Assembly (NCBI GenBank): GCA_037501455.1 | Contig: CM074858.1 | Span: forward strand, 76,048,501-76,112,500 | DNA length: 64,000 bases | DNA from: Lantana camara | Taxonomy: Eukaryota; Streptophyta; Magnoliopsida; Lamiales; Verbenaceae | Direction: 5' to 3' | Shown here: positions 11,120 to 62,926 of the stretch, piece after piece | Layout: the number at the start of each line of letters is the position of its first letter | Numbering within the stretch: position 1 is the first letter of the stretch | The notes under the pieces: generated by a model | Database searches by the model: none | Told to the model about the DNA's origin: nothing | What the model saw: the letters and a program-made list of their open reading frames with translations, nothing else | Made by a program: the position numbers and the translations under genes

Positions 11120-13651
11120 TGTAACGCCCCGATTTTTCTAATTAACTTTTTACGCTTCATTATAATTTTATAAAATTCTTAAAGCATTATTTATATGAAT
11201 TACTTGAATTAATATCATCGAAAATATCATTTCATGACACGGAAAATATTTATTGCATGAAATCAATACCGAGAGTGTTTCAAATTACCAAAGTGTCCCT
11301 AAATATTCAATTTAAAACTTTGGGGACTTAATTGCATGATTCTTCAAGGATATGATTGATCACTTTCAAAACCTACCTATACCTTATTGCATGACTTAAA
11401 CAACCAAAGGATTGAATGGAAAATTAGCACAATTCACACAAATCAATGGGATGAATCACGTAACAACTTCATCTCCATTCTTCCTTGATCATTTTCATCC
11501 AAATCTCACAAGTATCTTCATTTTCTCTCTCTCGGTTCCAAGGAAAGAAAAGGAAGAATTGAATTTCATCCAAGATTTCAAGAAACCATCCAAGTTTTGG
11601 GAAATCGATTATCATTTTCATCTATCTTCTTCATTTCTTTCACTTTAAGGTTGGTTTTGCATGAAACCATGATTCTTGATCATGTTTGAGTTGGTTAGGG
11701 TTTGGAATTTATATGCTAGATGGATTGATTGGACATGGAAGCATGAATATGTGATCATATCATGAATTATGGCATGATTTATTCATGAATTCTTGAATAT
11801 TTGAGCTTGTATGATCAATAGGATCATGAACATGAAACCTTGAATTCTTGATCATAATTCATGTTTTGGGTGTTTAAAGTGTTATATTATCACCTTTGAA
11901 CATATATGCATCGTGCTTCCAGAAAATCATAGCTTTGTTGATTGAAATTGGGATTTTGGTTGCCTTGTTGATCATTCCCGTAGCTCTGCCCCTGTTCTGC
12001 TCTGTTTTTCTTCAGTTGCAGAACTGGGAACGACCGTTCCCAGCCTCCAGGCATTGTGGGAACGGGCGTTCCCACCTTTTCAAATAAAAGGGGCGGCCGA
12101 GACTGGGAACGGCCGTTCCCATTTTGGCCTGCGTCCCGGAAGGGCCGTTCCCAGCTCCAGCGGGTTTTAAATGGGAAAACGTTGGCGCGCTTTTGGGGAG
12201 GAACGGGAACGACCGTTCCCATTTACAAAGGGAACTCGGAACGGCCGTTCCCACCTGACATGCAGAACAAAATATTCTGCATAAAATTACGATTTCAGCC
12301 CCTCGATCCAACGACTTCTTTGACCCCGAATTGCTATAATATGTGCTAATATGTAGTGAAACAACATGTTATCATGCCACATTGTATTTTCGTGGTCGTC
12401 TCGATACATTTTGGCCGTTCGTCATATTTGATCCATTTTAGGTCATGTCTCATGTATACACGTCGCGTTTGCACAGGTCACGAGGTCGTGAACGAGGGAC
12501 AAGCTCCCTAGAACGTATCCTTGTCGCATTTCGCAAGAAAGGTGAGGTTTAGTTAATAATTGTATAACACCCTATAACCTTTATGTGAACTTTCCAGCCA
12601 AAAAGGTATTTACCTATTTTCTTAAATTCTTTCTAAACGTTTAAAACAATTTCAAGCAAATCGGACTCATGCAAAGCAATGCATGTGGTTCGATTAATAG
12701 CATAATCATGCAAAGCAATGCATGTATTGTACTATTCGTGATTATTTAGTGGCGAGTAGCATGATAGCACATTGGGCCCGAGGGTATGTGTACGAGTCAA
12801 CCGGGAAAGCATCGGGCTGACGGGTAGCTCTATACACACCCCTCAACACTGGGATGACCCCTGAATCCACCAGGAGGTTGGTGGAGGAAGGAATCCCGCA
12901 CGTGGGAGTCATGTTCCTGACGTGCGTAGCATGGATGGATAGGGCTTTGCAAACCCACCATCACCCGGAGTGAAGGAGTTCATGAAATGAATACGTGTAC
13001 ACCATAAATGAATTGCTTGTTCACTGAGACTTCAACTAGCCTGTAATATTTCACTATTGGTGTAAGGTTGGAAAAGCCCTCACTCGCCAGGGCCACGTAT
13101 CAATAATATGAATTTTAACTAATAAACTTGATAGTTGTAATCTCGGGCGATGGATATTGTATTTTAAACTTATGTTACTTTTATAACTAAAACATTACCC
13201 TAGGTCACAACGTGCATGTTATCTGTGCTATACATATATTTACTGCCTCACTCAGTCTTCCATGGACTGACACCCCACCTTTCAGGTACTTGAGAGCGGT
13301 CGTGTGCTAGGCGGGAGTCGAGTCAGGTTGCATTCCGCTGAGTCTAGCATTTCAATTTTGTGTATAGAATTTTTGGTATCATGTTCGGAACATTACTAGC
13401 ATATGATGGATATGTGTATTATGCAAGAGATGGTAACGTATTTATAGTTAAATACAGTACATATACATAGGAATTATTCGATGCTTCCGACTTATTTTAT
13501 TGCATGTATGGTTTAGTTCCCGCCTAGCTTGTTGGTATTGCATTGTCACCCGTTCGCTATAGTTTTGATTTATGTATGGACTTTCCATTTCATACGTGGA
13601 TCGAGGCTATAGTGCGGGGGTGTGGCACCTCCACGTGTAAGGGGTGCTACA
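11120..13651 (+). mobile_element. Solo gypsy-type LTR A (2532 bp)
   Basis: It starts TGTAACGCCCC and ends GGTGCTACA, with ggacc perfectly duplicated at 11115-11119 and 13652-13656. No internal region, primer site or pol is present, so it is a solo LTR. It carries the shared layout in sense: donor-like AAG|GTTGG at 11650, palindrome cluster 12024-12251, exon-like block 12477-12541 (after TTTGCACAG, before GTGAGGTTTAG), acceptor-like TTTCAG at 13285, and the conserved end block with GTGCGGGGG. The conserved covarying hairpin was not found in this copy. Confidence 0.9.
12024..12251. repeat. Palindrome cluster, LTR A (arms GGGAAC)
   Basis: CTGGGAACGACCGTTCCCAG at 12024-12043, GTGGGAACGGGCGTTCCCAC at 12056-12075, TGGGAACGGCCGTTCCCA at 12104-12121, a half-decayed copy at about 12134-12152, GGGAACGACCGTTCCC at 12205-12220 and GGAACGGCCGTTCC at 12238-12251. 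Arms are constant; the central four bases are GACC, GGGC or GGCC. The sequence between copies is unrelated, so this is not a simple tandem repeat. Confidence 0.9.
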
Positions 13652-13965
13652 GGACCCGTCCGCGTGCGGCGACGACGAGCGACAAACTTGCTTGGTCCTC
13701 GTCGTCCCGCACCGTTTTCCGTACAAAATTTTCAGAAAAATTTTCGTCTCGATTCGGGAATCAAAATCGCGATTTTAATAAATCTAAAATAAAACCCTTT
13801 TTTTTTTTTTTTCAGAAAACGATTTTCTCAATTTATCAGGAAACCTCTCAGATTCAAAAGCTCAAATTACGATACAAATTCAAGAATACCTAACTGTAAC
13901 TCAGATTCAAGAATTTCTCAAAATTCAGTTTAATTGAGACGAATCAAAAACACGATTAACGAGGT

Positions 13966-13978
13966 GGCTCTGATACCA
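13966..13978 (-). other. Primer-binding site of copia element
   Basis: In sense TGGTATCAGAGCC, two bases after the 5' LTR end. It is complementary to the 3' end of plant initiator methionine tRNA, the usual primer for these elements. Confidence 0.85.
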
Positions 13979-13980
13979 CT

Positions 13981-16240
13981 TGTTGGAAAACACGAATCAG
14001 AAAGCAGCGGAATTTAAAAATTTTTCCAACAAAAGGATCTTGAACTCGCAATCGTGTATCCAAATTCGTAAAGATAGAAAACTTACTTTTCTTTTATTCT
14101 TTCTTGAAGCGTTTCAAGCCACCCAAGAACGCTCTTCTCGCGGCTTGACAACCCGTCCCTCGAAAGTCTCTTTCTACTTCAGAATCCATTGTCGGGATAG
14201 CAATCCACACCAACCTAGATTCAATTCATGTTAGAGATGTTCTTAACAATATAACATAAAGAAAGAAATATGAAACGAGAAAAGCAGGATTGAAACTCCC
14301 TTCGAAAACCAGTTTTGCAAAAGTAGAAAACTGCCAGTCACAAAACCCTCGTGAAAAAATTCATCCTTCAGGATATGGACGAACGGTTTTCGCCATCTTC
14401 TTTGGTTCGATTTTTTCATTCGCTTCACGTCGGGTTCAGAATCGTTTCATCATCCCTTCTGATCGTTTTGCTTAGTCCCCACTTTTGGTAAAGCTCGAAT
14501 CTTTAAAACTTCTAACTTGAAGTCTCTAGAGATAGTCCACCAACTTGGCTACAATCTAACTAGTAAGGATGCTAGTTCTCTAGTTAGTGTTTAGGCTTAA
14601 CCTAGGGTTTCGTTTATCTTGGAGAAAGGATGGTGTTCAACATATGAACCAAAAGAATTCGATTAGCTCTAAAGGGGAGCATGAGCTCCCCTATATATAG
14701 GCAAGGGGGAGGGACGCCGAACCTAGTCCTTGTCGGGCAAGGATTTGGTCCCTCTCTCTCCTATTTACTTGATCATCAAGTATTTTCCAACTTTGACTTT
14801 GAATTCTAATTCAAATCAACTTTCAAGAGAGCTAAAAATATCCAAACTATTTTTGGATAATTTTATACTTTATTTATTTAAAATAAATAACTTATTTTAT
14901 CTAATTAATTAATTCATAATTAATTAACTAGATTATTTTTCTCCAAAATAAGACTTTCTTTTTAATTCAAAATTAAACCAGAGTCTTAATACATAAATAA
15001 ATATACACATATATTTATACACGTGTGTGACACGTGTCACAATGACACGTGTCACTCACGTGAGCCACACGTGTGGTTTCACACGTGTGGAACCCTCTTG
15101 GCTTGATTAACTCGTTTAATCATTTTAAAGCCTCAAGTCATGTAACCAAGTTGTTGTGTGTGACCCTCTTGGTTCTCAATTCAATTAGCAGTGACCCTAA
15201 TTAATTAATTCACTAATTAATTAATCAGTCCACGGATTAAACAACCATAGTCTAGCAACAGGTGTTTAACCCCTAGCTGAATTGGAATGTTCGGATTCGA
15301 CAGAACCTTTAAGTCATTGATTCATGTGAGATACAATCCTCCTACTTACTATCTCTCAACCAAGATCTAGGGCAAGGGAATAATCAGAACCCTAATAATC
15401 CGGTCTTAAAGCTAAGTGCATTTTATATCCATTTGATCTCAATCGAAGAAGCCCTTTTCTTGATGTCTTGATCTACTGCCTTGGCCAAGGACTCCATATG
15501 GCATATGAATGACTTACACAATAAGAGATCACCTTGCATATGCAAGTGTAGGTCCTTTCTTGATTCTCATTCACTTTCATGAATCACTTGTGCAGCCCCA
15601 GCATAAGCCTTGAATCAGTTGTCTAAGGCGACACCCTTTAAAGCTTATACCAAAGACTACAGAGTTAATTCATAAAGTGACAAGGAACCTCAAGTCTAAG
15701 GATCAATTAATCACATCAATGACTCGTGAGATATTTCCTAATCTGGAAGTTTCCATTTCCTGAAATAGAAACTTCCTTTCCCATTTAGGAATGTTCTCAC
15801 ACGGGGCACCTCAGTGAACTTACTTATTAAAGTAAGCACCCTCATGTATCACGCACGAATCAACTATACACTTTGCACCTCCATGAAACAAGGTGGTCCT
15901 TCTTAAGGGCGTGATCCCACAAGCAAGCCTTAGAGGAGTCAGGTTGACACTCCCACTGTCTGTAGGACTCATCGGCTTGGAGTATTTTACTAATCATGAC
16001 TTATGTGATATAGGGCTCGTTTCATGAACCATTTCACCTAAATGGTAGAGTCCTAAAGTCATCAGGATTAGGGGAGTTCTCATACATGCGCACGTAATGG
16101 AAACACACAAAACACGTATTGGCATATAAAGAAGTGTTTGCCTATAATCAATCGTATATTATTCAAAGATTGTCTGTGATACAAGAAAAGTCCCAAAGCA
16201 GATTACGTCGAATCGGCTTTCTAGGGCACTATTCCTAACA
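13981..16240 (-). repeat. 5' LTR of the copia element
   Basis: Partner of 3617-5876, same length. It keeps the TATA box (14691-14700) and the G-box cluster (about 15019-15090), so both proposed promoter elements are intact. Being the 5' copy, it would drive the element's RNA along the minus strand. Confidence 0.9.
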
Positions 16241-19318: not shown

Positions 19319-19448
19319 GTCAGTCTTTCCTTCACACTAGGTTAGTGAGTTGAGTTCATTGTGGCTTTTGCTTGGATTTCACAGTACTCTTTAACAGTAT
19401 TAAGTGTCTGCTTTAGTATGTGAGGATTTAGATTGGAGCAGTACATCA
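18185..19448 (+). promoter_or_regulatory. Upstream region and 5' leader of the GRAS gene
   Basis: AT-rich DNA with several poly-A/T runs and no recognisable transposon. TTATAAAGC near 19133 could be a TATA box. A long CT-microsatellite (about 19258-19312) is typical of plant 5' leaders. The reading frame stays open upstream to 19404, but that position is GTG and no in-frame ATG precedes 19449. Transcript start and any leader intron cannot be fixed from sequence. Confidence 0.45.
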
Positions 19449-21245
19449 ATGGCGTACATGTGTACAGACAGTGGAAATCTAATGGCGATTGCCCAGCAAG
19501 TTATCAAGCAGAAGCAGCAGCAGGAGCAACAGCACCAGCAGCACCAGCAGCACCAGCAGCAGCTTCTCACCATTAACCCTTTCTGCCTCACTTCTTGGCC
19601 CGCCGCCGCAGCCAACCAACAAAACCCCACCTCCACCGCCCTAAGCTATGGCCTCACGGCCGGATTCGCCGACCCGTTTCAGGTTCCTGCAGGAGCTGAA
19701 ACCTCTGAACCGGGGTTTCAGTTCCCCAATCTCGACAACCATTCGAGTGGGTTTCGGTTCTCCGATTTGTGCGGCGGTGCCGGCGCCGAGTTCGATTCGG
19801 ACGAGTGGATGGAGAGCTTGATGGGTGGCGGAGATTCAACGGAGAGCTCCAATCTCCAGACCGATTGGCAGACGAGTGCTGAGTTAAGCCACCTCTATCC
19901 TGCCGATCCTTTCCCGAGTCGGCTCAGCATTAGCTCTTCTACGCCCTCCGATCTCAACCGTGTCATCTACTCAGATCCTCCGCCGCCCTCCGCCTGGGTC
20001 CCACCTTCCTCAGCTCCCTTACCAGCAGCAACGCCAACCTCACTGCAAGATTCTAAGCCGGTAATTTCCAAAGACGATCTCTTACCAACAACTGGTGCTT
20101 CGACAAGCTCTCCGGAAGCTTCGCCAAAAGCAAAGCCAATTCTAAAAGCCTTAGTCGAGTGCGCTCGGCTCTCTGAGTCCGACTCAGAAAACGCTGTGGA
20201 ATCACTTATCCGACTCAGAGAGTCCGTTTCCCAAAACGGAGATCCTCTAGAGCGAGTTTCGTACTATTTCTCAGAAGCGCTTTACAGCCGAGTGTCGCGT
20301 CAGGCAGAGAAAACTGCCACCATTTACGATACTACCTCTGAAGAGTTCACTTTATCGTACAAGGCCCTCAACGACGCCTGTCCATACTCTAAATTTGCTC
20401 ATTTAACAGCAAACCAAGCGATTTTAGAAGCCACGGACAAAGCCCAGAAGATTCACATAGTAGATTTCGGGATTGTTCAAGGAATCCAATGGGCTGCTTT
20501 TCTGCAAGCTTTGGCAACCCGCCCCTCCGGAAAACCCGAAAGGATTCGGGTTTCGGGCATACCCGCCCCGGCTCTCGGAGATTCTCCGGCAGCATCACTT
20601 CTGGCTACGGGCAATCGATTGCGGGACTTCGCCAAGCTTCTGGATCTGAATTTCGAATTCGAATTCGTGCTAACCCCGATTCAGGAACTATCTGGGACCA
20701 GTTTCCGGGTCGACCCGGATGAGGTTTTGGCAGTGAATTTCATGCTTCAGCTGTACAATTTGCTGGACGAGACTGACGAAGCCGTTGAGTCTGCTCTCAA
20801 ACTTGCAAAATCATTGAATCCGTGCGTGGTCACTTTGGGTGAGTATGAAGTGAGTCTAACCCGGGTTGGGTTCTTGCACCGCTTCAAAAACGCTCTCAAA
20901 TACTACACAGCTATCTTCGAATCACTCGAACCCAACTTAGCTCAGGACTCGTCGGAGCGCCTCCAGGTGGAAAGGTTGTTGTTTGGCCGTAGAATAGCCG
21001 GAGTTGTAGGCCCGGAGGAGCTAAAACGTGAACGAATGGCAGATAAGGATAGCTGGAGGCATTTGATGGAAGGTGCCGGTTTCCAGCCGTTGATCTTCAG
21101 CCATTACGCTGTGAGTCAAGCCAAAATACTTCTTTGGAACTACAGTTACAGCTCAATGTACAAACTCGTTGATTCTTCCCCACCTGGATTTCTATCTTTG
21201 GCTTGGAATGAAGTTCCTCTTCTCACCGTCTCTTCGTGGCGTTGA
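19449..21245 (+). CDS. SCL4/SCL7-like: GRAS transcription factor, SCARECROW-LIKE 4/7 type
   Basis: Intronless coding sequence of 598 residues. GRAS proteins are nuclear transcription regulators; the SCL4/SCL7 branch has been linked to stress responses. The start is the ATG at 19449 ([17 protein letters not shown]), which matches the conserved N-terminus of this branch as I know it. A Gln/His-rich run follows (about 20-39) and then a disordered Ser/Pro-rich region to about 225. The GRAS domain follows in normal order: LHR I (about 229-283, ALVECARL), VHIID ([14 protein letters not shown], about 335-348), LHR II (about 380-407), PFYRE region (about 427-496, [11 protein letters not shown]) and SAW (about 514-598, ending VSSWR). 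No frameshift or missing block is seen, so the gene is probably functional. The CAG/CAC-rich tract (19508-19563) may vary in length. Family certain; branch very likely. Confidence 0.95.
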
Positions 21246-23938: not shown

Positions 23939-25818
23939 ATTTTTTTTAAATATAATAGGTCTGTAACACCCCGGAGCGAAGCAAAAATAAACAAAACTTT
24001 ACAATTTCGAATTTAACGTCAAAACTTATACATATATCATAACTCAGCAAAATGCATAAATAAACAAAATACAATGCATGTGACTCAAGCTCTCCCAAAA
24101 TAAAGGCTCAAAGACAACCGCCTAGCTCCAACTCCTCAGAACGAAAACCTGCAAATTCAAATCAAAGGGGGAAAAAGATAGAAATAACGAGGGTCAGTCC
24201 TACAGACTGGTGAGGGGGCTAACACACGCACCCATATATATATATACATAAGAGCAAAGCAAAAACAAAGCTGAAAGGATTCATGAACCGGGCACGATTT
24301 TTGCATTCTAAAACATTTAACCCGTGGTAATATATATAAAGAAAGAAGTTTGGGGCCGAAGGCCAAATCAAGACAAGTTTTAGAGTTTAGAAATTCGCCC
24401 CCGTTTCACAACCATAAACGAAACATAACGAACCGAAAGCTTAAATCCATCCCACTTACTCCAGAAGCAAAGGCGAAGCGAATTACAAAACAAATCATAA
24501 ATCATTCCCACCCCAACATTGTTTGGGGAAAAGAGGTGCCCCTCTCAACCCCCACATATACACGAAATGAGACGGGGGATCCACCCGCTCCTTCGACGGG
24601 TCACGAAGCACACCGTCGGCTCAAGAAGACCCGCTTTCCTCTCGACCTCCCGAGGATGAGCTAAGTCTCCCTTTTGTGGAGAAGTGCACAGGGGTCGTAA
24701 CCGGCGACCCCATGGTCGTCCCGGGTCTCCCTTACCCACAACTCCGGGGCCCATCACACAAACACATATACTTCCGCTGATCATACTTATCAAGCTTACC
24801 ATTCGAAACTTATCCACAAATCTTATCACGCTTACACACACACACTTTTATCAAAGCTTGTCAAAACAAACGAAAATAGAGCTTATATACTTATAAAAGC
24901 GTTTTCAAATTCTCAAAACAAACGGGATAAATCCCACAAAATACGTATCCAAACACATATCTATATATATACATATATAAGTCGCATGCGGGTTCGAAAT
25001 TCAATTAAGGTTTTAGGTCATCATAGCTAAAAGGAAAGAAAACCTCACCTTGTCGACCAAACCGAACAAAACGGGCCAAAAGGAGTCAAACGAACCACTT
25101 CCTCACATCGGAACGAACCTAAGAGCAAAGCAATGAGCAAGAGGCAAACTTAGACTCAAAGTGAACCATATTGACGCTCGGCAATTGCATATGAATGTAA
25201 GTGATGCAATGCATTTCATATAAATTTATACTTAAGCATATCAAACCAAATATTGAGTCATCATTTAACTAATTCAGGAATTAATTACATAACAGGTCAA
25301 ATATATTTATAACATATCATATTGTATCCTATCGCAAGTATTCATCAAATTAAAGTTCATATAAAAGGTAAAGGATACATAAGAAGTGAAATAAAGTAGC
25401 ATATTAGGCATATAAAAGCATAGGAGTTCATATTAAATCACAAGTCATATATATCACATTAAACGAATCCATAATTTTCATATAACAAGCATACCCTATC
25501 ATACAACATGTTATCAAAGCATTCATATCATAGAAGGAGCAAAGAATGATCATGCAAGGCATATAAATGAGACATGAAGTCATAAATGCACATTAAGGTA
25601 GCATACGTCGCATAAGAGATCATGATTCGAAAACGAGCAATTAAATCAAGCCACAAATTCATAAAACATAAGTTAACACATAATATATCAAGTTAGCAAT
25701 GCATACGAGTCATAAACGGGACAAGAGAAAGTAATTAAAAGCAACGAAACGACGAAAGAATTTCCCCCGGGCTGCCACCGTGAGACATGACACGACTATG
25801 TCCAAAAAGCAAAGGAAA

Positions 25819-25920
25819 CGGACACGGCCGTGTCCGAATTTATAAAAATCTGATGCCCAAGTCGAGGCCTTGACACGGTCGTGTCATGCTGCAGTTCATT
25901 CTTGACACGGCCGTGTCAAG
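25819..25920. repeat. Palindrome cluster, LTR I (arms GACAC)
   Basis: CGGACACGGCCGTGTCCG at 25819-25836, TGACACGGTCGTGTCA at 25871-25886 and CTTGACACGGCCGTGTCAAG at 25901-25920, plus a weaker copy near 25785. The flanking bases extend each stem differently (CG, T, CTT), so every copy has its own matched outer arms around a constant GACAC core. Confidence 0.9.
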
Positions 25921-27179: not shown

Positions 27180-27199
27180 GGAATTCGAATGCGAATTCC
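27180..27199 (-). promoter_or_regulatory. Conserved covarying hairpin, LTR I
   Basis: GGAATTCG-AATG-CGAATTCC as read on plus: 8-bp perfect arms and a 4-nt loop. It lies 375 bp before the putative exon-1 donor. Confidence 0.6.
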
Positions 27200-27772
27200 C
27201 TAGCTCAAGTTATGGCCTCCGGAACACAAGGCGCGCTAAAACTAGTTAGACCCTCATGTCCCTCGTCAAATACCAAAGGTTTAAAACCTCGACAAATGAA
27301 CACGAAAACTTAAAACGAGCATGCAAACACATTCATAACTCACATATATCACGCATACCAAAATTTCACAAAAAAAATCGGAATTGAATTCCGGCACATA
27401 ACGAGCAAATTACGAGCATACGTAACTTAAACGTTTAAAATTCAAAGTTCATAAATATAAACAATTAATTTCATATAAATTCAAATAATCATAAAAGCAT
27501 TAAAATAACATTCAAATATGTAACAAAATAATTTAAAGCACATAAAACCCTCTCGTTACGACGTACCTGGAAATCCGAACGATCGGGATGTTACAAGGTC
27601 GGCTCGTGAACCGGCTCGCGAGCCACGAACAAGAATAAAAAGGTTCGGGTTCGAGTTCAGTTCGAACCTTGGTTCTGTTCGACATTAGCTCGAACTTTTC
27701 AAATTTGAATTCGAACTTTAACCAGCTCGGTTCGGTCAGCTCGCGAACTGGCTCGGTTCGTATACATCCCTA

Positions 27773-31497: not shown

Positions 31498-31560
<63 letters not shown>

Positions 31561-37612: not shown

Positions 37613-37657
<45 letters not shown>

Positions 37658-40420: not shown

Positions 40421-40501
<81 letters not shown>

Positions 40502-42915: not shown

Positions 42916-42920
42916 GGCTG

Positions 42921-50193: not shown

Positions 50194-51835
50194 TGTAGCA
50201 CCCGAGCGCAAGGTACCACATCCCCCGCACCGAGACCCCACCCGAATATGAAATAGATAATCCATACTCAAGCTAGATCACGGCGAACGGGGACATACAC
50301 ACACTCTATGCTAGGCGGGACTAACCCTTAAACCAAGAAATACAAGAATAGACAATAAAACGGACGCATAAATAACATATAAGCTGTACATTGAGCATCA
50401 CGCTCCAAAAGAATATATCATATGTAGCGCCCAGAACGGTGGGCCACCACATCCCCCGCACTTAAACCCGAACCCACATGTGAAATGGATTTCCATACAT
50501 GAGTCCAAGCCTAAGCGAACGGGAACCTACACTCACACGCTAGGCTAAGCGGGGCTATAACACGAAAAGAGCGCGCAGACAGACAATAAGAATGCGGAAG
50601 CAATATCATAAGGATCGCAAAGAAGCTCTATACTAACATATACATCATATACAACGGCCTGACGGCCCAAAAATAGGTCAAGTATTAACATAAATCTCCG
50701 AATACATATTTAGGATTCAAAACAGTTTATAAAAGTAATTAAAATGCAGCAGGTAAAAATGCCGACTCGACCTAAACTCGAAAGTACGACACGACTGACG
50801 CACTTCCCCGCCTAGCTCGAGCAACCTGCAACTAAAGTGTTAAAAGGAAGGGGTCAGTCAAACTTGACTGAGTGAGGGGGCTAACGCACACCCACACCAT
50901 AACTACATATAGAGCATCACAAATAGTCAAAGGGGTCGATCATGAACCGAGCTAGGGTTTTTCATACCAAATCATTTTTAAAACATACATATAATACCAA
51001 GGAAATCCTAACTCGTTTCACAACCACCAAAGCATAAAATAATCATAAACGTCCGGCGAGTACGGACCTCCTCAACTCCTCATACAAATCATAAATACAT
51101 AACAATTCATAAATTCATAACTCCTCAACGCCTTGGTGATCGGGAATCAAACCTTTCCACCCATATGGATTCTATATACATACGGGGTAGCTAACCCACA
51201 ATATGCCTTCCCCGGTTATTCACCGAGGGCTCAAGGTAAGAGCGCCTTCTCAACCTCCAAGAGTCGCACGCCACCACCTCAAATGGGATGTGCACAGGCT
51301 TAACCCCGACGGCCCTTGCCGTACCGGGGGTCCTTACCCACAATCCCTGGGCCCGGATTCATAAGAAACATACCAATAATCCCATCTTTCAGGGCACATC
51401 TCGCGGAATCATAAAGGAAACGTACAAGGGATTCAAAATCATAAGCTCATATACGCCCATACTTATACCATTTTCATAAATTCGAAAAGGGATACATAAA
51501 ATCATAAACGTATCATAAGCATTCGTATTTAACCATATAATACATATATAGCCACATGCAGGATACGAAATCAATAACATAAAGGCCATAGGTCGTTTAT
51601 CTATAAGAAAAGATCCTAACCCTCACCTTGAAGTGGAAGCGGAGTGAAAATCGGACAAAAGAAGCAACCGAACACCTAAACCTCGGGCTCTTTAACTTCG
51701 TGAAGAGGCTCTGAAACAAAAGAACGCAAGACCCGTGACTTAGACTCAAATATGTACCAATTAGACGCTCGAAAATGCTTAGGGATGCAATTAAAGCAAA
51801 TGAAATACATAAACATGACAAATGAACCCTACCAA

Positions 51836-52831
51836 ATCATATTCACACAATTCATAGAAAATGAGATCATAAGTTCAAAACAAGGCACATAATGCGTAAT
51901 ATAAGAAGCTAACATTGCATACACGTCATAAACGAAGAAAGAAAACACAAAGAAAAACAACGAAGCGATAAAACGAGCAATTATCGCCGCCATGTTTTCA
52001 AATGACACGGCCGTGTTGGGTTTTAGTTCAAAATGGACACGGCCGTGTCCGGTTAAAATAAATTCAGGAGCTTAATTCGAGAGGCTGACACGGCCGTGTT
52101 GAGTTTTAGTTCAAAATGGACACGACCGTATCCGGTTTTATAAAAATAAATTGCTCCAAGTCGAGAGGCTGACACGGCCGTGTCCAAAACATGCATAAAG
52201 ATGACACGACCGTGTTGGCCTATCGTCTTCGAAAAAAAATAGCAGCAGACAGTAACTCTACGTGAAAAAACAGAGCAAGGAAAAAATTCATAGAAAAAAT
52301 CATAAGTTCATTTTCTATGAATTGTGTGAAAAAATCATATTCACACAATTCATAGAAAATGAGATCATAAGTTCAAAACAAGGCACATAATGCGTAATAT
52401 AACAAGCTAACATTGCATACACGTCATAAACGAAGAAAGAAAACACAAAGAAAAGCAACGAAGCGATAAAACGAGCAATTGTCGCCGCCATATTTTCAAA
52501 TGACACGGCCGTGTTGGGTTTTAGTTCAAAATGGACACGGCCGTGTCCGGTTAAAATAAATTCAGGAGCTTAATTCGAGAGGCTGACACGGCCGTGTTGA
52601 GTTTTAGTTCAAAATGGACACGACCGTATCCGGTTTTATAAAAATAAATTGCTCCAAGTCGAGAGGCTGACACGGCCGTGTCCAAAACATGCATAAAGAT
52701 GACACGGCCATGTTGGCCTATCGTCTTCGAAAAAAAATAGCAGCAGCAACAGTAACTCTGCGTGAAAAAACAGAGCAAGGAAGCAAGGGAGCACGCAGCA
52801 ACATCAAGCAACAACCTCAAGCTACAAAACT
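51836..52831. repeat. 498-bp tandem duplication in the 3' LTR only
   Basis: The stretch starting ATCATATTCACACAATTC at 51836 recurs at 52334. The period, 498, equals the LTR length difference exactly. The junction contains a perfect 23-bp inverted repeat (52308-52330 and 52340-52362) with a 9-bp spacer, absent from the 5' LTR. This fits template switching during reverse transcription or repair. The duplication doubles the palindrome cluster. Confidence 0.88.
52003..52715. repeat. Palindrome cluster, 3' LTR G (arms GACAC)
   Basis: About a dozen copies of GACACGGCCGTGTC or decayed forms (GACACGACCGTATCC, GACACGGCCATGTT), in two sets created by the 498-bp duplication. The best copies are GGACACGGCCGTGTCC. 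Same core as LTR I and, apart from the centre, LTR D. Confidence 0.9.
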
Positions 52832-53532
52832 CATGCAAATGAAGGAAAATCACTCCCTAATTAACATACAATCATCCAATCATCCCAAAAGCTCAAAAAT
52901 TATCATATATATCAAGAACTCTCATGCAAGAATTCAAATTTCATCAATGGCAACTTCCACCACACTCATCCATATTGAAAAGGGAGACCATATAAGCATA
53001 TTAGAGTCATAAGAGATCATATATATAACTTCAAACTAAAGCTTAAGTCCAAGAAACCAAGGTGATCATCAAACCCTTAAAATTCATGTCATGTTCCATA
53101 TGTGTATCAAACATAGCCCAAAGCATGGAATTAATAGCTCAAAATGACCATATAATCATGTACATATCGAATAATATCTTACCCCTTGAAGATGTTGGAA
53201 GAAAATGGAGATTAGAGCTCAAAACCTCCTTGAGATGAATAGTGACGGGTTGAAGGGTTTAGCTCCAAAGTGCTGCACTTTTCTTCCTTTTTCTTGCTTG
53301 TACCGATTAAGAGAGGGAGAGAGATGGTTATGCATTGTTTTGGTGGAGTGTGGGGCCAAGCTTGAGGGTAATATGTCAAGAGTTGAGGGACTAAGGTGCA
53401 ATTAAGTGTAAGGTAGTCATATAAGAGCGAGGTAAGTTTCCGGTCAGATTTCGGATTATCAAATGAGCTTAAAAGGTTATGAGGCTTAGTCCATCGAACC
53501 CGAATCGTCGAAACGAGTTCCACGGTGGTGAC

Positions 53533-53552
53533 GGAATTCGAATCCGAATTCC
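53533..53552 (-). promoter_or_regulatory. Conserved covarying hairpin, 3' LTR G
   Basis: In sense GGAATTCGGATTCGAATTCC: perfect arms around GATT. Compared with D and E the fifth base is T instead of C and its partner A instead of G. The 5' LTR copy at 61090-61109 has one broken pair. Confidence 0.6.
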
Positions 53553-53790
53553 CGAGCTCAAATTACACATATTGGAACCCAAGGTGCGCTAAAAGCGTTT
53601 TAACCTCCTTTAGGTTCCGAACGTAACAACTAATTCAAAAGCTCAACAATTAGATTCGAAAACATGTAACGAGCATATATCCAAGTTCATAACACGTAAT
53701 TCTCTATCATACCAAAACAACAGGAAATTCCGGATTCAATTCAAGCATGAACGAATCAAATCTGTACGGTCTGAAAGTCGGGGTGTCACA

Positions 53791-53805
53791 ATCCTTCCCC
53801 CTTAA
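53791..53805 (-). other. Polypurine tract of Tekay element
   Basis: In sense TTTTAAGGGGGAAGGAT, directly before the 3' LTR start TGTGACACC. Confidence 0.85.
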
Positions 53806-53818
53806 AAAGGACTTGTCC

Positions 53819-56800
53819 TCAAGTCCGAACCGAGTTCTCAAACAACTCCGGATATAACCTTCTCATTTTGTCCTCAGTTTCCCAAGTCGATTCCTCGGAT
53901 TTCTGATCCCTCCAAAGTACCCTAACCAAAGGAATCCGCCGGTTTATCAGTTCTTGCATCTTCCTATCCTGAATTGCAACCGGATGCTTTTCTATGGTTA
54001 AATCCGGCTCTAACTGAACCTCTTCAACTGGGAGAATTGTTGACTCATCGGGATAATACTTACGGAGTTGAGAGGCATGAAACACATTGTGTATCCCGGT
54101 CATACTCGGCGGTAAATCCAATCTATACGTTGTTGCTCCGATTCTTTCCAAAATTTCAAACGGCCCAAGGTAACGAGGACTGAGCTTTCCACCTTTACCT
54201 ATATGAGTGAAGCCTTTTCTAGGAGACGCCTTCAAAAAGACTCTATCTCCGACTTCGAACTCTAAGGGCCTTCTTCTCTTATCGGCGTAACTCTTTTGAC
54301 GGGCTTGAGCTGCTCTCATCCTCTGTCGAATCTTATGAACTTTTTCAATGGTATCGACAATCTTTCCCTTAGACTCAGCTCTCTCGAGCTTATTCTCTTC
54401 GGTCCACCTCCAATCCTCAATATCCCAAAATAGAGGAGACCTGCACTTTCTTCCATAAAGTGCCTCGTACGGAGCCATCTTAATCGAACCCTGATAGCTG
54501 TTGTTATAAGCAAACTCAACCAATGGTAGGTGCTCATCCCACTTATCTTGGAAGTCCAAAGCACATGCTCTAAGCATATCCTCTAAGTATTGAATTAGCC
54601 TTTCAGATTGGCCGTCCGTCTGAGGATGCGAAGCTGTGCTAAACTTGAGCTTAGTGCCCAAACACTTCTGAAGATTCTGCCAAAAGATCGAAGTAAACCG
54701 TGGATCCCGATCCGAAACAATACTAGCCGGAACTCCATGTAACCTTACAATCTCCCGAACATACAATTCGGCTAGCTTAGGAACTTTCTCAGACATCCGA
54801 ACCTTGAGGAAATGGGCAGACTTAGTCAATCTGTCCACAATTACCCATATTCCATCAAACCCTCCTTTAACTCTAGGTAAGCCGGACACAAAGTCCATCG
54901 TCACTTGCTCCCACTTCCACTCGGGAATAGGAAGTGGTTGGAGAGTTCCTCCCGGCTTCTGGTGCTCTGCCTTCACCTTTTGACACGTTAGACATCGCTT
55001 CACGAAGTTCGCGACGTCCCTTTTCATGCCATTCCACCAGAATTTCTCTTTCATGTCCCGATACATCTTAGTACCTCCCGGATGAATCGAGTACCTCGAG
55101 CGATGTGCCTCCTTAAGTATAATCCTCTTGAGCTCTTCTGGGACACATATTCTCGCTTCGAACCTTAACAAACCGAAATCATCAATCCCAAACTTAGAAT
55201 TCGGATCATCCTTAGAAGGAGTTACCAACTTCTGAATCTCGGCATCCATAGCCTGAGCTTCTAACAACTGCTGTTTCAAATCCGGTATTATCGTGAGATT
55301 CGCCAACCAAGTTCCTGAAACCAAGATCTCTGAACCCAAACTTGAAGAACCTGCTTCCAAATTAGCCACATTCGCCTTTCTACTCAAGGCATCGACAACC
55401 ACGTTTGCTTTACCTGGATGGTACTGAATGGTGCAATCGTAATCCTCTAATAACTCTATCCAACGCCTCTGTCTTACATTCAGATCTTTCTGAGAAAAGA
55501 GATACTTGAGGCTTTGGTGATCCGTAAACACCTCGAACGTTGCACCGTAGAGATAGCGTCGCCACTTCATCAAAGCGAACACAACCGCAGCTAATTCAAG
55601 ATCGTGGGTAGGGTAATTCTTCTCATGCTCCTTCAACTTTCTTGAAGCATAAGCCACCACTCTACCGTGTTGCATCAAAACACAACCAAGACCCTCTTTC
55701 GAGGCATCTGTATAAACTGCATAACCCTCTGTACCCTCGGGTAGGGTAAGAACTGGTGCTGAAGTTAACTTCACCTTCAAAGTCTGAAAACTCGCCTCAC
55801 ACTTATCATCCCAGTCAAATTTCACTTCCTTCTTAGTTAGGCGAGTCAACGGGGCGGCAATTTTAGAGAAATCCTTAACAAATCTGCGGTAATAACCGGC
55901 CAACCCAAGAAAACTCCGAATCTCTGAGACATTTCTCGGTCTCTCCCAATGAAGCACGGACTCAACCTTAGATGGATCAACTTCAATCCCATCACCTGAA
56001 ATTATATATCCCAAAAACATAACTCGGTCGATCCAAAATTCACAGTTGCTGAACTTTGCATACAACTTATGTTCCCTCAAAGTTTCCAAGACGATCCGTA
56101 GATGTTGAGCATGCTCTTCAGCCGACCTAGAATACACCAGAATGTCGTCTATAAAGATCACCACGAACTTGTCAAGAAAAGGCCTGAACACTCGGTGCAT
56201 CATATCCATAAATACAGCTGGAGCATTAGTTAACCCAAACGGCATGACAACGAATTCAAAGTGCCCATATCTGGTATTAAAACCAGTCTTCGGAATATTC
56301 TCCTCCCTAATTCGCAGCTGATAGTAGCCCTGCCTCAAATCTAACTTGGAGTAGACTTTCGAGCCTTGTAAAATATCAAATAACTCCTCGATGTGAGGCA
56401 AAGGGTATTTGTTCTTCACAGTCATCCTGTTCAACTCACGGTAGTCTATACACATTCGTAGCGTTCCGTCCTTCTTCTTTACAAATAGAACGGGAGCACC
56501 CCACGGAGAAATGCTCGGACGAATGTAACCGCAAGCTAGAAGCTCATCAAGCTGCGTTTTTAATTCCTTTAACTCTGCGGGAGCCATTCTGTAGGGAGTC
56601 TTCGAAAAAGGCTCTGCTCCAGGATAAAGGTCGATTACGAACTCGATGTCCCTGTCGGGTGGTAAAGAACCCAATGTCTTAGGGAATACATCGGCATACT
56701 CTCGTACGACCTCCGTCTCCTCAAGTTTAGCCTGATCCTTCGGTCTATTCAAAAGATAGGCTACGAAACCTGTCGCACCGTCCCGGACCAGTTTACTCGC

Positions 56801-58282
56801 CTCAACGAAAGAAATAAACGGGCTTGACTTCACCTTCTCGCCCTTAAACACCACTGAACCAAAAGAAACCTTCTTTTCCCGACAATCCATCCGAGCCCCA
56901 TGTTCAGACAACCAATCCATTCCAAGGATTACATCATATCTCTTCATCGGCATTTCAATCAAATCGGCGAGGAAAACCCTATCTTCAAAACTCACTGGAC
57001 AACCCCGATAAATCCTGCAAGTAACAAGACTACCGCCAAGAGGCGAACTAACCACATAATCATGCGCACAGAGGGTAACAGGCAAGCACAACGAAGAAGC
57101 AAGATCCCGAGAAATAAAGGAATGAGATGCCCCGGGATCGAACAATGCATGAAATGTAGTGCCATGAATGCTTACGGTACCTTCAATCACGGCATTAGGA
57201 TCAAGATCTGCAACTTCCTCTTCCTCGGCCCCGAGTGCATAAGCTCTAGCCTGAATTGCGGGCCTCTGATTGTTCCCCACTGCCTGTCCTGGCCTTTTGT
57301 TGGGGCATTGATTAAGCATGTGATCCGGCGAACCACAACCGTAGCACCTCTTGTGAAGTTTGAAGCAATTTTCAACAAGATGGTTACCCTTACAATATTT
57401 GCACTGGACTTGAGGTGGTGCCGGTAGTGCTAGAGGTTGAGCCTTTTGTCCTGCCGGCTTGAATTGCTTGTTTTGAGGCTTTACCGGTGCAAAAGCTTGG
57501 TAAGCTGGCCTTTTTCCATATTTATTCTGACCTCCCGAGCTAGAACCCTGTACAGCCTGAGAAGTCCTCCTCCTCCTAGCAATCACTCGATCCTCCACTT
57601 TCAAAGCCTTCTCGGTAACTAACGCCCAAGTGTCGGTATCAACAGCTTCTAGTGCATCCTTCATATCTTCTCTTAAACCTCGAAGAAACTTCAAAGGCTT
57701 GTGGCGGTCATCGTTGGAAATATTGGGAGCATATCTTGACAAACGGTAGAACTCATCAATGTATTCGGTGACTGTCTTCTCACCTTGTTTCAAGTCCATG
57801 AACTCTTGGAGTCTTCGGTCCCTAGCGGCGATTGGAATGTACTTGTTACGAAACTCCCGAGTGAATGTTTCCCAATTAATCTCATCACCGGCAGCATCCA
57901 AACGGGCTCGGATGCTAGTCCACCAACTATAAGCTTGGCCTTGCACCATTGTGAGGGTGCACCTTGCCTTCTCAACGGTTTCACACGGTATCAACTCCCA
58001 AATTCTTTCTATTTGGATTAGCCACTCCTCAGCTTGAGTATCATTTCCACCTTCAAACTTGGGGGGATTCTGATTCCTGAACTCCCGTAAAATATGAGTG
58101 ACTTGCCCTCCTTCATGATTGACAACCGGAGGTGTATTCTGGCGATATCGGGTATCCAAATATGCACATAATCTCGCCATGAATCCCTCAGGTTCCATGT
58201 TGTTCTCGGCTTGTGGGGAACGATCCCGGTGATGTCTATGGCCCGGAGACCTGTCACAATGATGATCTCTTCTCGGAGGCAT
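53819..58282 (-). CDS. Ty3/gypsy gag-pol polyprotein (Tekay/Del type, intact)
   Basis: One uninterrupted frame of 1487 residues from the ATG at 58282 ([16 protein letters not shown]). The frame is open to 58306, but no ATG lies further upstream. Numbering from 58306 (subtract 8 for the ATG): gag about 70-260; zinc knuckles 302-314 and 321-334 ([14 protein letters not shown]); protease D390 ([10 protein letters not shown]); reverse transcriptase about 575-760 with FIDDILVYS at 718-726; RNase H from D867 (YTDASKEG) to DALSRKA; integrase H1068, H1075, C1105, C1108 and D1138, D1199, E1235; a short chromodomain-like tail at about 1454-1485 ([16 protein letters not shown]). Chromodomains of this clade steer integration toward heterochromatin. 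All catalytic residues are present. Codes for the element's own replication proteins, not a host function. Confidence 0.96.
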
Positions 58283-58457
58283 ACAATAACATCCAAAGAA
58301 TTCCAATACACATGCGTGCGGTTAGTACATGATCATGTGCACAATTCATAGAAATTCAAGTAAATGAGGCACATAAATGCACATAACCACATTGTCCTAA
58401 TCCGAACGACCTAGACAAACTCAACACGACTCAAGAGCTTCGGTTTTGCAACCGAAA

Positions 58458-58469
58458 GCTCTGATACCA
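58458..58469 (-). other. Primer-binding site of Tekay element
   Basis: In sense TGGTATCAGAGC, eight bases after the 5' LTR end. Complementary to initiator methionine tRNA. Confidence 0.9.
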
Positions 58470-58477
58470 CTTTAAGA

Positions 58478-61347
58478 TGTAGCGCCCAGAACGGTGGGCC
58501 ACCACATCCCCCGCACTTAAACCCGAACCCACATGTGAAATGGATTTCCATACATGAGTCCAAGCCTAAGCGAACGGGAACCTACACTCACACGCTAGGC
58601 TAAGCGGGGCTGTAACACGAACAGACCGCGCAGACAGACAATAAGAATGCGGAAGCAATATCATAAGGATCGCAAAGAAGCTCTATACTAACATATACAT
58701 CATATACAACGGCCTGACGGCCCAAAAATAGGTCAAGTATTAACATAAATCTCCGAATACGTATTTAGGATTCAAAATAGTTTATAAAAGTAATTAAAAT
58801 GCAGCAGGTAAAAATGCCGACTCGACCTAAACTCGAAAGTACGACACGACCGACGCACTTCCCCGCCTAGCTCGAGCAACCTGCAACTAAAGTGTTAAAA
58901 GGAAGGGGTCAGTCAAACTTGACTGAGTGAGGGGGCTAACGCACACCCACACCATAACTACATATAGAGCATCACAAATAGTCAAAGGGGTCGATCATGA
59001 ACCGAGCTAGGGTTTTTCATACCAAATCATTTTTAAAACATACATATAATACCAAGAAAATCCTAACTCGTTTCACAACCACCAAAGCATAAAAGAATCA
59101 TAAACGTCCGGCGAGTACGGACCTCCTCAACTCCTCATACAAATCATAAATACATAACAATTCATAAATTCATAACTCCTCAACGCCTTGGTGATCGGGA
59201 ATCAAACCCTTTCCACCCATATGGATTCTATATACATACGGGGTAGCTAACCCACGATATGCCTTCCCCGGTTATTCACCGAGGGCTCAAGCTAAGAGCG
59301 CCTTCTCAACCTCCAAGAGTCGCACGCCACCACCTCAAATGGGATGTGCACAGGCTTAACCCGACGGCCCTTGCCGTACCGGGGGTCCTTACCCACAATC
59401 CCTGGGCCCGGATTCATAAGAAACATACCAATAATCCCATCTTTCAGGGCACATCTCGCGGAATCATAAAGGAAACGTACAAGGGATTCAAAATCATAAG
59501 CTCATATACGCCCATACTTATACCATTTTCATAAATTCGAAAAGGGATTCATAAAATCATAAACGTATCATAAGCATTCGTATTTAACCATATAATACAT
59601 ATATAGCCACATGCGGGATACGAAATCAATAACATAAAGGCCATAGGTCGTTTATCTATAAGAAAAGATCCTAACCCTCACCTTGAAGTGGAAGCGGAGT
59701 GAAAATCGGACAAAAGAAGCAACCGAACACCTAAACCTCAGGCTCTTTAACTTCGTAAAGAGGCTCTGAAACAAAAGAACGCAAGACCCGAGACTTAGAC
59801 TCAAATATGTACCAATTAGACGCTCGGAAATGCTTAGGGATGCAATTAAAGCAAATGAAATACATAAACATGACAAATGAACCCTACCAAATCATATTCA
59901 CACAATTCATAGAAAATGTGATCATAAGTTCAAAACAAGGCACATAATGCGTAATATAACAAGCTAACATTGCATACACGTCATAAACGAAGAAAGAAAA
60001 CACAAAGAAAAGCAACGAAGCGATAAAACGAGCAATTGTCGTCGCCATATTTTCAAATGACACGGCCATGTTGGGTTTTAGTTCAAAATGGACACGGCCG
60101 TGTCCGGTTAAAATAAATTCAGGAGCTTAATTCGAGAGGCTGACACGGCCGTGTTGAATTTTAGTTCAAAATGGACACGGTCGTGTCCGGTTTTATAAAA
60201 CTAAATTGCTCCAAGTCGAGAGGCTGACACGGCCGTGTCCAAAACATGCATAAAGATGACTCGGCCATGTTGGCCTATCGTCTTCGAAAAAAAATAGCAG
60301 CAGCAACAGTAACTCTGCGTGAAAAAACAGAGCAAGGAAGCAGGGGAGCACGCAGCAACATCAAGCAACAACCTCAAGCCACAAAACTCATGCAAATGAA
60401 GGAAAATCACTCCCTAATTAACATACAATCATCCAATCATCCCAAAAGCTCAAAAATTATCATATATATCAAGAACTCTCATGCAAGAATTCAAATTTCA
60501 TCAATGGCAACTTCCACCACACTCATCCATATTGAAAAGGGAGATCATATAAGCATATTAGGGTCATAAGAGATCATATATATAACTTCAAACTAAAGCT
60601 TAAGTCCAAGAAACCAAGGTGATCATCAAACCCTTAAAATTCATGTCATGTTCCATATGTGTATCAAACATAGCCCAAAGCATGGAATTAATAGCTCAAA
60701 ATGACCATATAATCATGTACATATCAAATAATATCTTACCCCTTGAAGATGTTGGAAGAAAATGGAGATTAGAGCTCAAAACCTCCTTGGGATGAATAGT
60801 GACGGGTTGAAGGGTTTAGCTCCAAAGTGCTGCACTTTTCTTCCTTTTTCTTGCTTGTACCGATTAAGAGAGGGAGAGAGATGGTTATGCATTGTTTTGG
60901 TGGAGTGTGGGGCCAAGCTTGAGGGTAATATGTCAAGAGTTGAGGGACTAAGGTGCAATTAAGTGTAAGGTAGTCATATAAGAGCGGGGTAAGTTTCCGG
61001 TCAGATTTCGGATTATCAAATGAGCTTAAAAGGTTATGAGGCTTAGTCCATCGAACCCGAATCTTCGAAACGAGTTCCACGGTGATGACGAAATTCGAAT
61101 CCGAATTCCCGAGCTCAAATTACACATATTGGAACCCAAGGTGCGCTAAAAGCGTTTTAACCTCCTTTAGGTTCCGAACGTAACAACTAATTCAAAAGCT
61201 CAACAATTAGATTCGAAAACATGTAACGAGCATATATCCAAGTTCATAACACGTAATTCTCTATCATACCAAAACAATAGGAAATTCCGGATTCAATTCA
61301 AGCATGAACGAATCAAATCTGTATGGTCTGAAAGTCGGGGTGTCACA
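58478..61347 (-). repeat. 5' LTR of Tekay element (LTR G, 2870 bp)
   Basis: Unduplicated copy. In sense: hairpin 61109-61090 (one broken pair), donor-like site with last exon base 60740, exon-like block 59765-59682 (84 bp), acceptor TTGCAG just before 58880, then the end block. As the 5' LTR it would drive the gag-pol RNA. Several ATGs remain between the acceptor and the gag ATG. Confidence 0.92.
60058..60273. repeat. Palindrome cluster, 5' LTR G (arms GACAC)
   Basis: Six copies: a decayed GACACGGCCATGTT, GGACACGGCCGTGTCC at 60090-60105, GACACGGCCGTGTT, GGACACGGTCGTGTCC, GACACGGCCGTGTCC and a decayed GACTCGGCCATGTT. They alternate at about 30 and 55 bp, with similar spacer sentences (TTTTAGTTCAAAATG). 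Confidence 0.9.
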
Positions 61348-62823
61348 TCTTAAGTCACATGCCTAAATGGCCCAAAATATACAATTCCCCAAGTCATAGA
61401 TAAAATACCAAGACCATAAGTATGAGTATGCAAGTGTAAACAAAATATACAAGAGCTAGAAGCAAATGCAAGACTCTAGACTCGAATTCCCGCCTAGCTC
61501 CCCTTACACCTACACAACAAAACTGAGAACAATCCGGGTTTAGTCCAAAGGGGACTGGTGGGTATAAAACAGGGCATAAATATAGATAAAACGATAATTA
61601 AACAAGTACATTCAAGCCATAATCCCAAATGAGGTTTTCAAAACATTTCTCAAGTGAGTGAAATAAGGAAATCATCAATCGCGATTATAACACTCAAATT
61701 CATTAGGTCTTTAGTGGCCCGGTGAGTGGGCGTGCATTATCTCCACCCAACACCTTGTGTATTTCAATAAAACATTCATTCAATCATTCTTTTCATGCAT
61801 ACTATTCTTTTGTGCACATACATAACATATACTCCTTCTTCCACCGGGTTGGTGGACGGGTTTGCAAGACCCGGCCACCCATGCATTGACCAAAAGGGGT
61901 TACATGACTCCCCGGATGGCACTCAACGTCCATTCCTCGCTAACTCCTAACGAGGTCCGGTTATGTCGTTAGATTGGTGGGACTAGTGAAAGGGATCACC
62001 GTCGGCCCATGCCTCCCCGGATAGCCTCTAGCACTAAGTCCCTGGGCCCCATTCTGTGCATTCGATCATTTCTCGCCAAAACATTTAGGTAGGGTTCAAA
62101 AAGAAGGGCTTTACGTTCAAAATCATATACTCGATAAAAAGGACTCTATATATATATAATTTTAGGCCGAAATCTTTACACATAAGAGGTATATAAGGTA
62201 ATTTAACTAAGTAGAAGAGAAACCCACCTTCAAAGATAAAATAAAAGGAGTAGAAGCTTCAAGGATCGCCTTCACCTTCAACTGGACCCGGATCTGTGCG
62301 AACAAAGTGGTGTGAGACTCAAAATGACCAAATAAGACGCTCGGCAATAAAATGATCATGATATGAATGCATAAAAGATGATATTATGTAATGGACACGT
62401 TCATGTGCACTATTAATGTCTTAAAGACATATAAACATTCATTCCATTCTTTTCATGAAGCGTTCAAATTTGTTAAAGTTCAACATCTCTATAAATCATA
62501 CTAAATTAGTCCAAGAAATTCAAATAACGATCATAACACGTAGTATAACATGTATACGTATCACACAAGTCATTAAATAAGGAATAAATAGCAATTAGGG
62601 TTCAAACTTAAGAGCAAAGTCCATGCATGCGCACTTTAGGAGCAAAGAAGACATATTGAAGCATAACTCGTAAAATATTCCACGAAAAATCATAAAATTT
62701 CATAACACTCAAGATAATACATGTTAGCATAGCATAGAAGTCATAAAAGAGGTGGAGGGATATAAAACAAGCGAAGAAAAACAAGAAAAAATGAAACCGG
62801 AGCAATAAAAAAAAACTGGACAG

Positions 62824-62926
62824 AATCCACCCCCATGGATTTTTCCAAAAGGAAAAATCCACCCCCATGGATTTGGTCCAGACCTACTGACTCAAATCCA
62901 CCCCCGTGGATTTGAGTTTGTAGCCA
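62824..62926. repeat. Palindrome cluster, LTR H (arms AAATCCA)
   Basis: AATCCACCCCCATGGATT at 62824-62841, AAATCCACCCCCATGGATTT at 62865-62884 and CTCAAATCCA-CCCCCG-TGGATTTGAG at 62901-62926. The centre is six bases here (CCCCCA/G) and the arms are AT-richer than in the other clusters. Confidence 0.9.

Follow-up and report, generated by a model that had tools for sequence, protein, structure and literature searches.

Arrays of paired GC-rich palindromes in the long terminal repeats of Tekay-like Ty3/gypsy elements of Lantana camara

What are the clusters of short, GC-rich palindromes that lie inside retrotransposon long terminal repeats (LTRs) in a stretch of 64,000 nucleotides (nt) of the Lantana camara genome (contig CM074858.1, positions 76,048,501 to 76,112,500), and how can their symmetry persist when their letters differ from one LTR to the next? 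The analysis rests on this one window (the whole stretch) of one genome. Nine lineages of Tekay-like LTRs (Ty3/gypsy chromovirus) carry such arrays in ten LTRs, two of which, G and I, belong to a single element (Table 1). An initial annotation had listed six arm types, and exactly those arms were found where it placed them; its LTR letters cannot be mapped exactly onto ours, and GACAC arms occur in four LTRs (D, X at 37.2 kb, G, and I). Each array consists of dyad-symmetric sites that share their arms and stand in pairs at a constant spacing, and some spacers are homologous between LTRs with unlike arms. The explanation that we favour, with about even confidence, is that the arrays serve the LTR as cis-regulatory modules, their sites being bound in pairs by a dimeric DNA-binding factor that is not the same in every element family.

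The palindrome clusters are real. A general scan (5-nt arms, centres of 2–10 nt) found 22 clusters of at least three same-arm copies, against none in nineteen of 20 dinucleotide shuffles and one in the remaining shuffle, so the annotated excess over chance is upheld. By a manual count in which nested centre definitions are counted several times, 13 of these are LTR arrays, eight lie in a plain tandem repeat at 10.8–11.1 kb (GC-rich, unit of about 58 bp, 10789–11118, adjoining LTR A), and one is a GTTCG cluster at 27.65 kb. In a strict test (identical 5-nt arm, 4-nt centre, 500 shuffles per LTR) seven of the ten LTRs pass, with 0/500 shuffles as good in each of A, D, X, E, F, G, and I; B (281/500), C (360/500), and H (373/500) are not significant, and neither are an unrelated LTR family (376/500), LTR K (500/500), and four control stretches (455–489/500). 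In a relaxed test (14-mer frame nnnnCGnnCGnnnn, at most 2 mismatches, 300 shuffles per LTR) eight of ten pass, each with 0/300 (A 6 sites, B 8, C 3, D 4, E 3, F 3, G 7, I 5). X and H, whose centre differs, hold no seed (300/300), K has no site, and the control stretches are not significant; the unrelated LTR family has 2 sites (0/300). LTR H passes neither test, and its support is the three copies in the general scan. The shuffles thus reject chance in AT-rich LTRs as the source, with B, C, and H failing the strict form and X and H the relaxed one. The claim that every LTR carries a cluster was too broad, as K has none in its visible 1.65 kb by either test. A scan that ignored arm sequence and looked for GC-rich dyads around a 2-nt centre gave 34 sites, 23 of them in the arrays, 6 in the G-box clusters of the unrelated LTR family, and 5 elsewhere; X and H escape it because their centre is GGGG or GGGT. 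The sites share descent, so site counts are not independent.

Most sites, read in element orientation, fit nnCnCG-NN-CGnGnn. Over a hand-picked set of 44 sites (B matches 1088, 1339, 1360, 1366, and 1381 and all matches outside arrays dropped, the degenerate X site at 1311 added by hand), 218 of 264 pairs are Watson-Crick, against a mean of 144.8 and a maximum of 167 when the 3′ halves are re-dealt. The distinct arms are GGAACG (A), GTCGCG (B, C), GACACG (D, G, I), TCCCCG (E), TACCCG (F), and TCCACG (H); X combines GACAC with a GGGG or GGGT centre. Among the six words positions 5 and 6 are invariant, position 3 varies once, and positions 1, 2, and 4 are free. Arm variation is thus less total than the annotated list implied, and a common core carries exchangeable outer pairs. 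The inner pair is G:C in 34/44 sites, and in 19/44 the centre is GC, which gives CGGCCG. Differences between arms are compensated across the dyad (two pairs between GTCGCG and GACACG, two between GGAACG and GACACG, one between TCCCCG and TACCCG). Centres are strand-asymmetric, with purine-first GG, AC, and GA in 20 cases against 5 of CC and GT (13 against 5 without X and H). Beyond the shared core, whose extents were set by eye, stem extensions sum to 43 against 14.6 with random flanks from the same LTR (0/5000), and in that test 6 sites have at least three extra pairs against 0.76 expected (P 0.0002); permuting the 3′ flanks inside each array gives only P 0.055. The reported matching of outer stem bases therefore stands against random flanks and falls short within arrays.

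The sites come in twos. Under a fixed rule that allows up to 3 mismatches, omits G because it copies I, and discards matches that overlap or lie far off, 18 of 36 distances between neighbours are 31–34 nt where the null mean is 2.8, and 0/20,000 random placements put as many distances in any 4-nt bin; without B the count is 16/26, and an earlier test with hand-picked sites had given 19/34. Short and long distances alternate in A, C, D, E, F, and I, with 39-32 in H, 74-34 in X, and less regularity in B. The centre-to-centre distance of a pair is constant within an LTR (32 three times in both A and I; 33 in C, 32 in D, 31 in E, and 31 in F, twice each), and this holds despite differing stem lengths. 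From a site to the next but one the distance is 75–84 in C, D, E, F, and I, and 79 and 100 in A. Arm and spacing travel together (GTCGCG with 33 in B and C, GACACG with 32 in D and I, TmCCCG with 31 in E and F), and the LTR backbones disagree with this pairing: B is nearest to F, and E is nearest to X and H.

How the arms came to differ can be read in part from the spacers. Within A, C, D, F, and X the spacers of an array show no similarity at p 0.01; in I, B, and E they are related, in direct or in inverted orientation (E1/E2 inverted). The annotated absence of repeats between copies thus applies to the first five arrays, and some spacers are also homologous between LTRs. With arm bases trimmed, spacers B3 and I2 share 15 matching bases (2/100,000 shuffles) and A2 and I2 match at 10/16 (7/100,000, about 0.03 after 380 tests), in both cases with different arms; an untrimmed first run gave 0/100,000 for both, and we prefer the trimmed values. 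The right-hand neighbour of B3 is decayed (5 mismatches to the B core), so its changed arm is visible at the left site only, and both sites flanking A2 are present. Matches C1/D1, A3/I1, and E2/F1 were lost on correction for the 380 tests. Arms also differ although backbones are 73–80% alike among X, E, and H, and 82% alike between B (downstream of 32705) and F over 888 nt. Spacers that are homologous beside unlike arms argue that the arms changed in concert with dyad symmetry kept; that symmetry is maintained while the sequence is replaced had been proposed in the annotation. Arms thus change jointly, at all sites of an array and in both halves of each dyad. The 31–34 nt pairing, the conserved inner CG..CG, and the spacer homology between LTRs had all been missed in that annotation.

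Ordinary tandem duplication, which the annotation had set aside, does account for G (498 bp) and for parts of I, B, and E; it leaves the unlike spacers of equal length unexplained. A functionless mutational process is a broader proposal, rather improbable but still deserving weight: short perfect palindromes would persist and spread through hairpin-templated strand switching, small duplications in tandem or inverted form, and local conversion, which would mend both arms at once as the DNA is reverse-transcribed or replicated. In its favour, the arrays of G and I differ at 7/213 positions against 14/1246 in the rest (Fisher P 0.024), and at 9/213 against 23/1647 in a second comparison (P 0.008), both comparisons sharing LTR I. 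From one LTR of the intact element to the other, the array has thus changed roughly three times more than the remaining sequence. In one palindrome the centre reads GGTC in the two G copies and GACC in I (region of 52131 and 60186), a single case of exact loop inversion, and the inverted duplication in B, the inverted E1/E2 spacers, and the copy-specific stem extension are also what such a process would leave. The faster change may, however, reflect C-to-T decay, as CpG transitions make up 3/21 and 7/32 of the G–I differences. Neither the 31–34 nt pairing across unlike arms and backbones nor the near-absence of length change in spacers without remaining similarity is predicted by mutation, nor is the restriction of all arrays to one LTR zone, about 0.9–1.8 kb from the LTR start.

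That zone may be an intron. A splice-donor-like AAG/GTRAG stands in C, D, X, E, F, and H, with GG/GTAAG at the aligned place in I, and this word lies 336–906 nt before the array in the seven LTRs. The ten LTR sequences hold 14 AGGTRAG words, all of which belong to the donor-like set. A second donor-like site follows in A, B, C, D, E, F, G, and I (X has one elsewhere), and an acceptor-like TGCAG/GT in C, D, X, F, G, and I is followed by AGCTAGGCG(G) or AGCTAAGCG. In LTR I the donor- and acceptor-like words are at 60740, 59680, and 58881, with matching places in other LTRs. From these words we predict that the LTR contains a leader with introns and that the array lies in the first of them. The CpG observed/expected ratio of the array is higher than that of the remaining LTR in A, B, C, D, and I and lower in X, E, F, and H.

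Only unspliced genomic RNA would keep an array placed in the first leader intron, and the arrays might accordingly act as RNA hairpins that mark or dimerise unspliced leader RNA and tell kin from non-kin by their arms. We consider this unlikely, though it deserves weight. The splice-like words around the arrays suit it, as do the outer stem extension, the sense-strand asymmetry of the centres, and the partial self-complementarity of the short spacers (58/194 mirror pairs against 44.5, P 0.009). Folding of seven of the ten arrays gave z scores of -3.2 to -6.7, 0/200 shuffles being as good in six and 1/200 in D, and retroviral palindromic and GACG-tetraloop dimerisation hairpins offer a precedent (PMC5874298). 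The favoured folds often join neighbouring sites rather than form single hairpins, however, and the dyad-axis distance is fixed though stem lengths differ. One arm word in every hairpin of an LTR is needless for RNA, and splicing and transcription start are themselves predictions. The 44-site set contains 12 G-T and 12 A-C mismatches (22 other), and wobble pairing in sense-strand RNA is rejected, there being no excess of G-T over A-C. The strong folding also suits a host-side reading in which the arrays chiefly supply structure to small-RNA production and silencing and persist merely as a by-product; mapped small RNAs gather at palindromic clusters in maize Sirevirus LTRs (Bousios 2016, as cited in PMC10760457). 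We regard this as very improbable indeed: a silencing target has no reason to keep symmetry and spacing, and single stems here are much shorter than known small-RNA precursors.

We favour the dimeric DNA-binding factor because the axis-to-axis spacing stays constant and one arm word fills a whole array; constant axis spacing would be expected of protein sites on DNA and not of separate RNA hairpins. A homodimeric factor would bind dyad sites standing in twos, about three helical turns apart, cooperatively and on one face of the DNA. The inner CG..CG is common, and the outer positions would set the specificity of each family. The partner could be a transcription factor of the host or a factor in silencing or anti-silencing, and if a family switched it, every site of an array would switch together; with both half-sites changing at once, the palindromes and spacing would survive and the letters would not. 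We infer the protein, its cooperativity, the partner switch, and the regulatory role; the dyads, the arms common to an array, the spacing in pairs, and the homologous spacers beside unlike arms are seen in the sequence itself. On the strand of the intact element the gag-pol frame is the only open reading frame (ORF) of at least 180 amino acids in the 4.7 kb between its LTRs, a search that covered ORFs of that length; with no further protein among them, the factor is probably host-encoded, or else Gag or integrase.

A symmetric core with copy-specific flanks has a counterpart in the window. The unrelated LTR family (TGTTAG...CAACA, 13981–16240 and 3617–5876, 99.7% identical) has six G-boxes (CACGTG) in 68 bp at 15020–15092 and 4656–4723, all with symmetric flanks (extensions 2, 3, 2, 3, 5, and 1). 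The G-box core is bound by bZIP and bHLH factors, and this cluster therefore indicates that a known dimer-bound core can carry such copy-specific symmetry. Between these LTRs (5877–13980) no stop-free stretch longer than 163 amino acids was listed, and this is perhaps a non-autonomous element with LTR A inserted.

Several points weigh against the DNA-binding factor. Copy-specific matched outer pairs and self-complementary short spacers are superfluous for a protein that reads sequence, and strand-asymmetric centres are unexpected where the DNA site is symmetric. No helical phase is seen in the longer distances (P about 0.3–0.7), X and H lack the second CG, and part of the geometry could have come down from a single ancestral array, as the I1/I2, B, and E spacers are related. 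Stem extension, spacer self-complementarity, and centre asymmetry suit hairpins, and the proposed binding factor remains putative; the annotation's two candidates, protein-binding or hairpin-forming sites, both stand. A more speculative proposal, which we think rather doubtful, treats the arms as a code by which lineages are recognised. Each family would repeat one self-complementary word at fixed spacing in its leader intron and exchange it wholesale on splitting; the word would be read either by a factor that co-evolves with it or through self-pairing of RNA, which would pick out the unspliced genomic RNA of that family.

The arrays are best placed in their elements by the intact Ty3/gypsy copy at 50422–61347 (- strand), which is inserted within LTR H and whose LTRs G and I are 98.1–98.6% identical. 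Its domains are Ty3-type in the order gag-protease-reverse transcriptase (RT)-RNase H-integrase, and its chromodomain match is weak (Chromo PF00385, E 3.5e-4, 20.9 bits against a curated cut-off of 25.1). The LTR form TGTGACACCCC...TACA and an initiator-Met type primer-binding site (PBS) are present, which we take to be marks of Tekay; the name itself follows the initial annotation. End motifs and BLAST served to locate the other related LTRs, namely A, B, C, D, X, E, F, and the start of K; of these, C lies nested within B, with TTTCC on both sides (29325–29329 and 32700–32704). Elsewhere in the window are a GRAS gene at 19404–21245, which matches proteins of Paulownia fortunei (like Lantana, Lamiales) and Sesamum indicum at 85%, and broken integrase and RT frames at 47212–49096, judged by eye to be copia-type.

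Table 1. LTRs, palindrome arrays, and coding region in the window
Feature	Position	Strand	Remarks
LTR K	1–1649, to window edge	-	GC-rich; visible 1.65 kb
LTR A	11120–13651	+	TGTAACGCCCC...GTGCTACA; end motifs; 3′ end 73–74% to C, G, I
Array A	12024–12252	+	six sites, GGGAACG/CGTTCCC; distances 32, 47, 32, 68, 32
LTR D	23962–27595	-	start 27595, end 23962; end motifs, BLAST
Array D	25789–25917	-	four sites, GACACG/CGTGTC; distances 32, 51, 32
LTR B, 5′ part	27908–29329	+	interrupted by LTR C, resumes at 32705
Array B	28849–29301	+	about eleven to twelve sites, GTCGCG/CGCGAC, partly decayed; large inverted duplication 29028–29211
LTR C	29330–32699	+	end motifs, BLAST
Array C	30622–30743	+	four sites (one perfect), GTCGCG/CGCGAC; distances 33, 42, 33
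LTR X	35900–39318	+	start approximate; end GTGTTACA at about 39318
Array X	37176–37297	+	GACAC/GTGTC, centre GGGG or GGGT; sites at LTR 1277, 1351, 1385, degenerate one at 1311
LTR E	39400–42450	-	ends approximate; 73–80% to X and H in blocks
Array E	40841–40960	-	four sites (three perfect), TCCCCG/CGGGGA; distances 31, 44, 31
LTR F	42700–45765	-	start 45765, 3′ end approximate
Array F	44751–44871	-	four sites (two perfect), TACCCG/CGGGTA; distances 31, 45, 31
LTR G	50422–53790	-	3′ LTR of intact element
Array G	52004–52714	-	twelve sites, GACACG/CGTGTC; six sites doubled by the 498-bp tandem duplication
gag-pol ORF	53819–58321	-	intact element; gag, protease, RT, RNase H, integrase, weak chromodomain
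LTR I	58477–61347	-	5′ LTR of intact element; PBS TGGTATCAGAGC at 58469
Array I	60059–60271	-	six sites, GACACG/CGTGTC; distances 32, 52, 32, 51, 32
LTR H	61350–64000	-	cut by window edge and intact element; likely tail 50194–50341
Array H	62824–62912	-	three sites, AATCCAY/RTGGATT, centre GGGG; distances 39, 32

Comparison with known systems is informative here, and the annotator's statement that no description was known has to be revised, since the RM boxes of Sirevirus LTRs are a close published parallel. The accessible part of PMC2829016 (Bousios 2010) describes 13 Sirevirus (Ty1/copia) RMs that are palindromic and LTR-clustered with element-specific arms and a CGG-CCG core, and its authors suggest that the boxes are possibly bound by different DNA-binding factors. 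Like our arrays, the RM boxes as described there are multi-copy, dyad-symmetric, and GC-rich, cluster in LTRs around a common CG-containing core, and have arms that are near-constant within an element and differ between elements, with diverging flanks. They differ in host (Ty1/copia Sirevirus against Ty3/gypsy chromovirus), in core (CGG-CCG against CGnnCG, with literal CGGCCG in part of our sites), and in number (8–32 copies per element against 3–12 sites per LTR). They also lie upstream of the TATA box and have more copies before env, whereas our arrays lie in a predicted intron. RM boxes form CpG islands, and the CpG ratio of our arrays varies among LTRs as given above. Ordered pairs 31–34 nt apart and array-wide arm exchange are absent from the RM-box description in that part of the paper. 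The system of PMC10760457 shares palindromic motif clusters in LTRs and strong predicted secondary structure with ours; it is a copia system, and according to that paper maize Ty3/RLG elements are generally without an obvious structure peak along the element.

Beyond palindromes, the VANC target arrays of Arabidopsis VANDAL elements are, according to PMC5735166 and PMC10398659, also short non-coding motif arrays, some of them intronic, that diverge together and are family-specific. Their motif YAGTATTAY is not palindromic, however, and VANDALs are DNA transposons that encode the binding protein; no such protein was seen between the LTRs here among same-strand ORFs of at least 180 amino acids. 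The Tnt1 BII boxes are likewise repeated LTR boxes, bound by nuclear factors, and differ in being copia and in U3 (PMC3316501, PMC3601003). Retroviral dimer-initiation hairpins are palindromic, lie in the leader, and are free in sequence if self-complementary, but, as far as the accessible part of PMC5874298 describes them, are few per genome and form no evenly spaced arrays; a dimerisation role here would be an analogy only. By analogy, the best reading is that our arrays would work like RM boxes, Tnt1 BII boxes, and VANC target arrays. New in comparison are the occurrence in a Ty3/gypsy lineage, the spacing of sites in pairs, the concerted exchange of arms, and the position in what is predicted to be a leader intron. 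A literature search covering few subscription papers found no description of such arrays in Ty3/gypsy LTRs, and a search with an integrase stretch found no relative; pattern matches in viral contigs (4 and 102 stretches) and one match in Alishewanella were not used.

If the pattern holds genome-wide, palindrome arrays would be a device common to the LTRs of copia and of gypsy elements. The exchange of arms throughout an array while spacing stays fixed would then be a direct, countable record of families changing regulatory partners or escaping recognition. The arrays are short and modular and offer natural arm variants on related backbones, and because of this the question of what reads such palindromes becomes a testable one.

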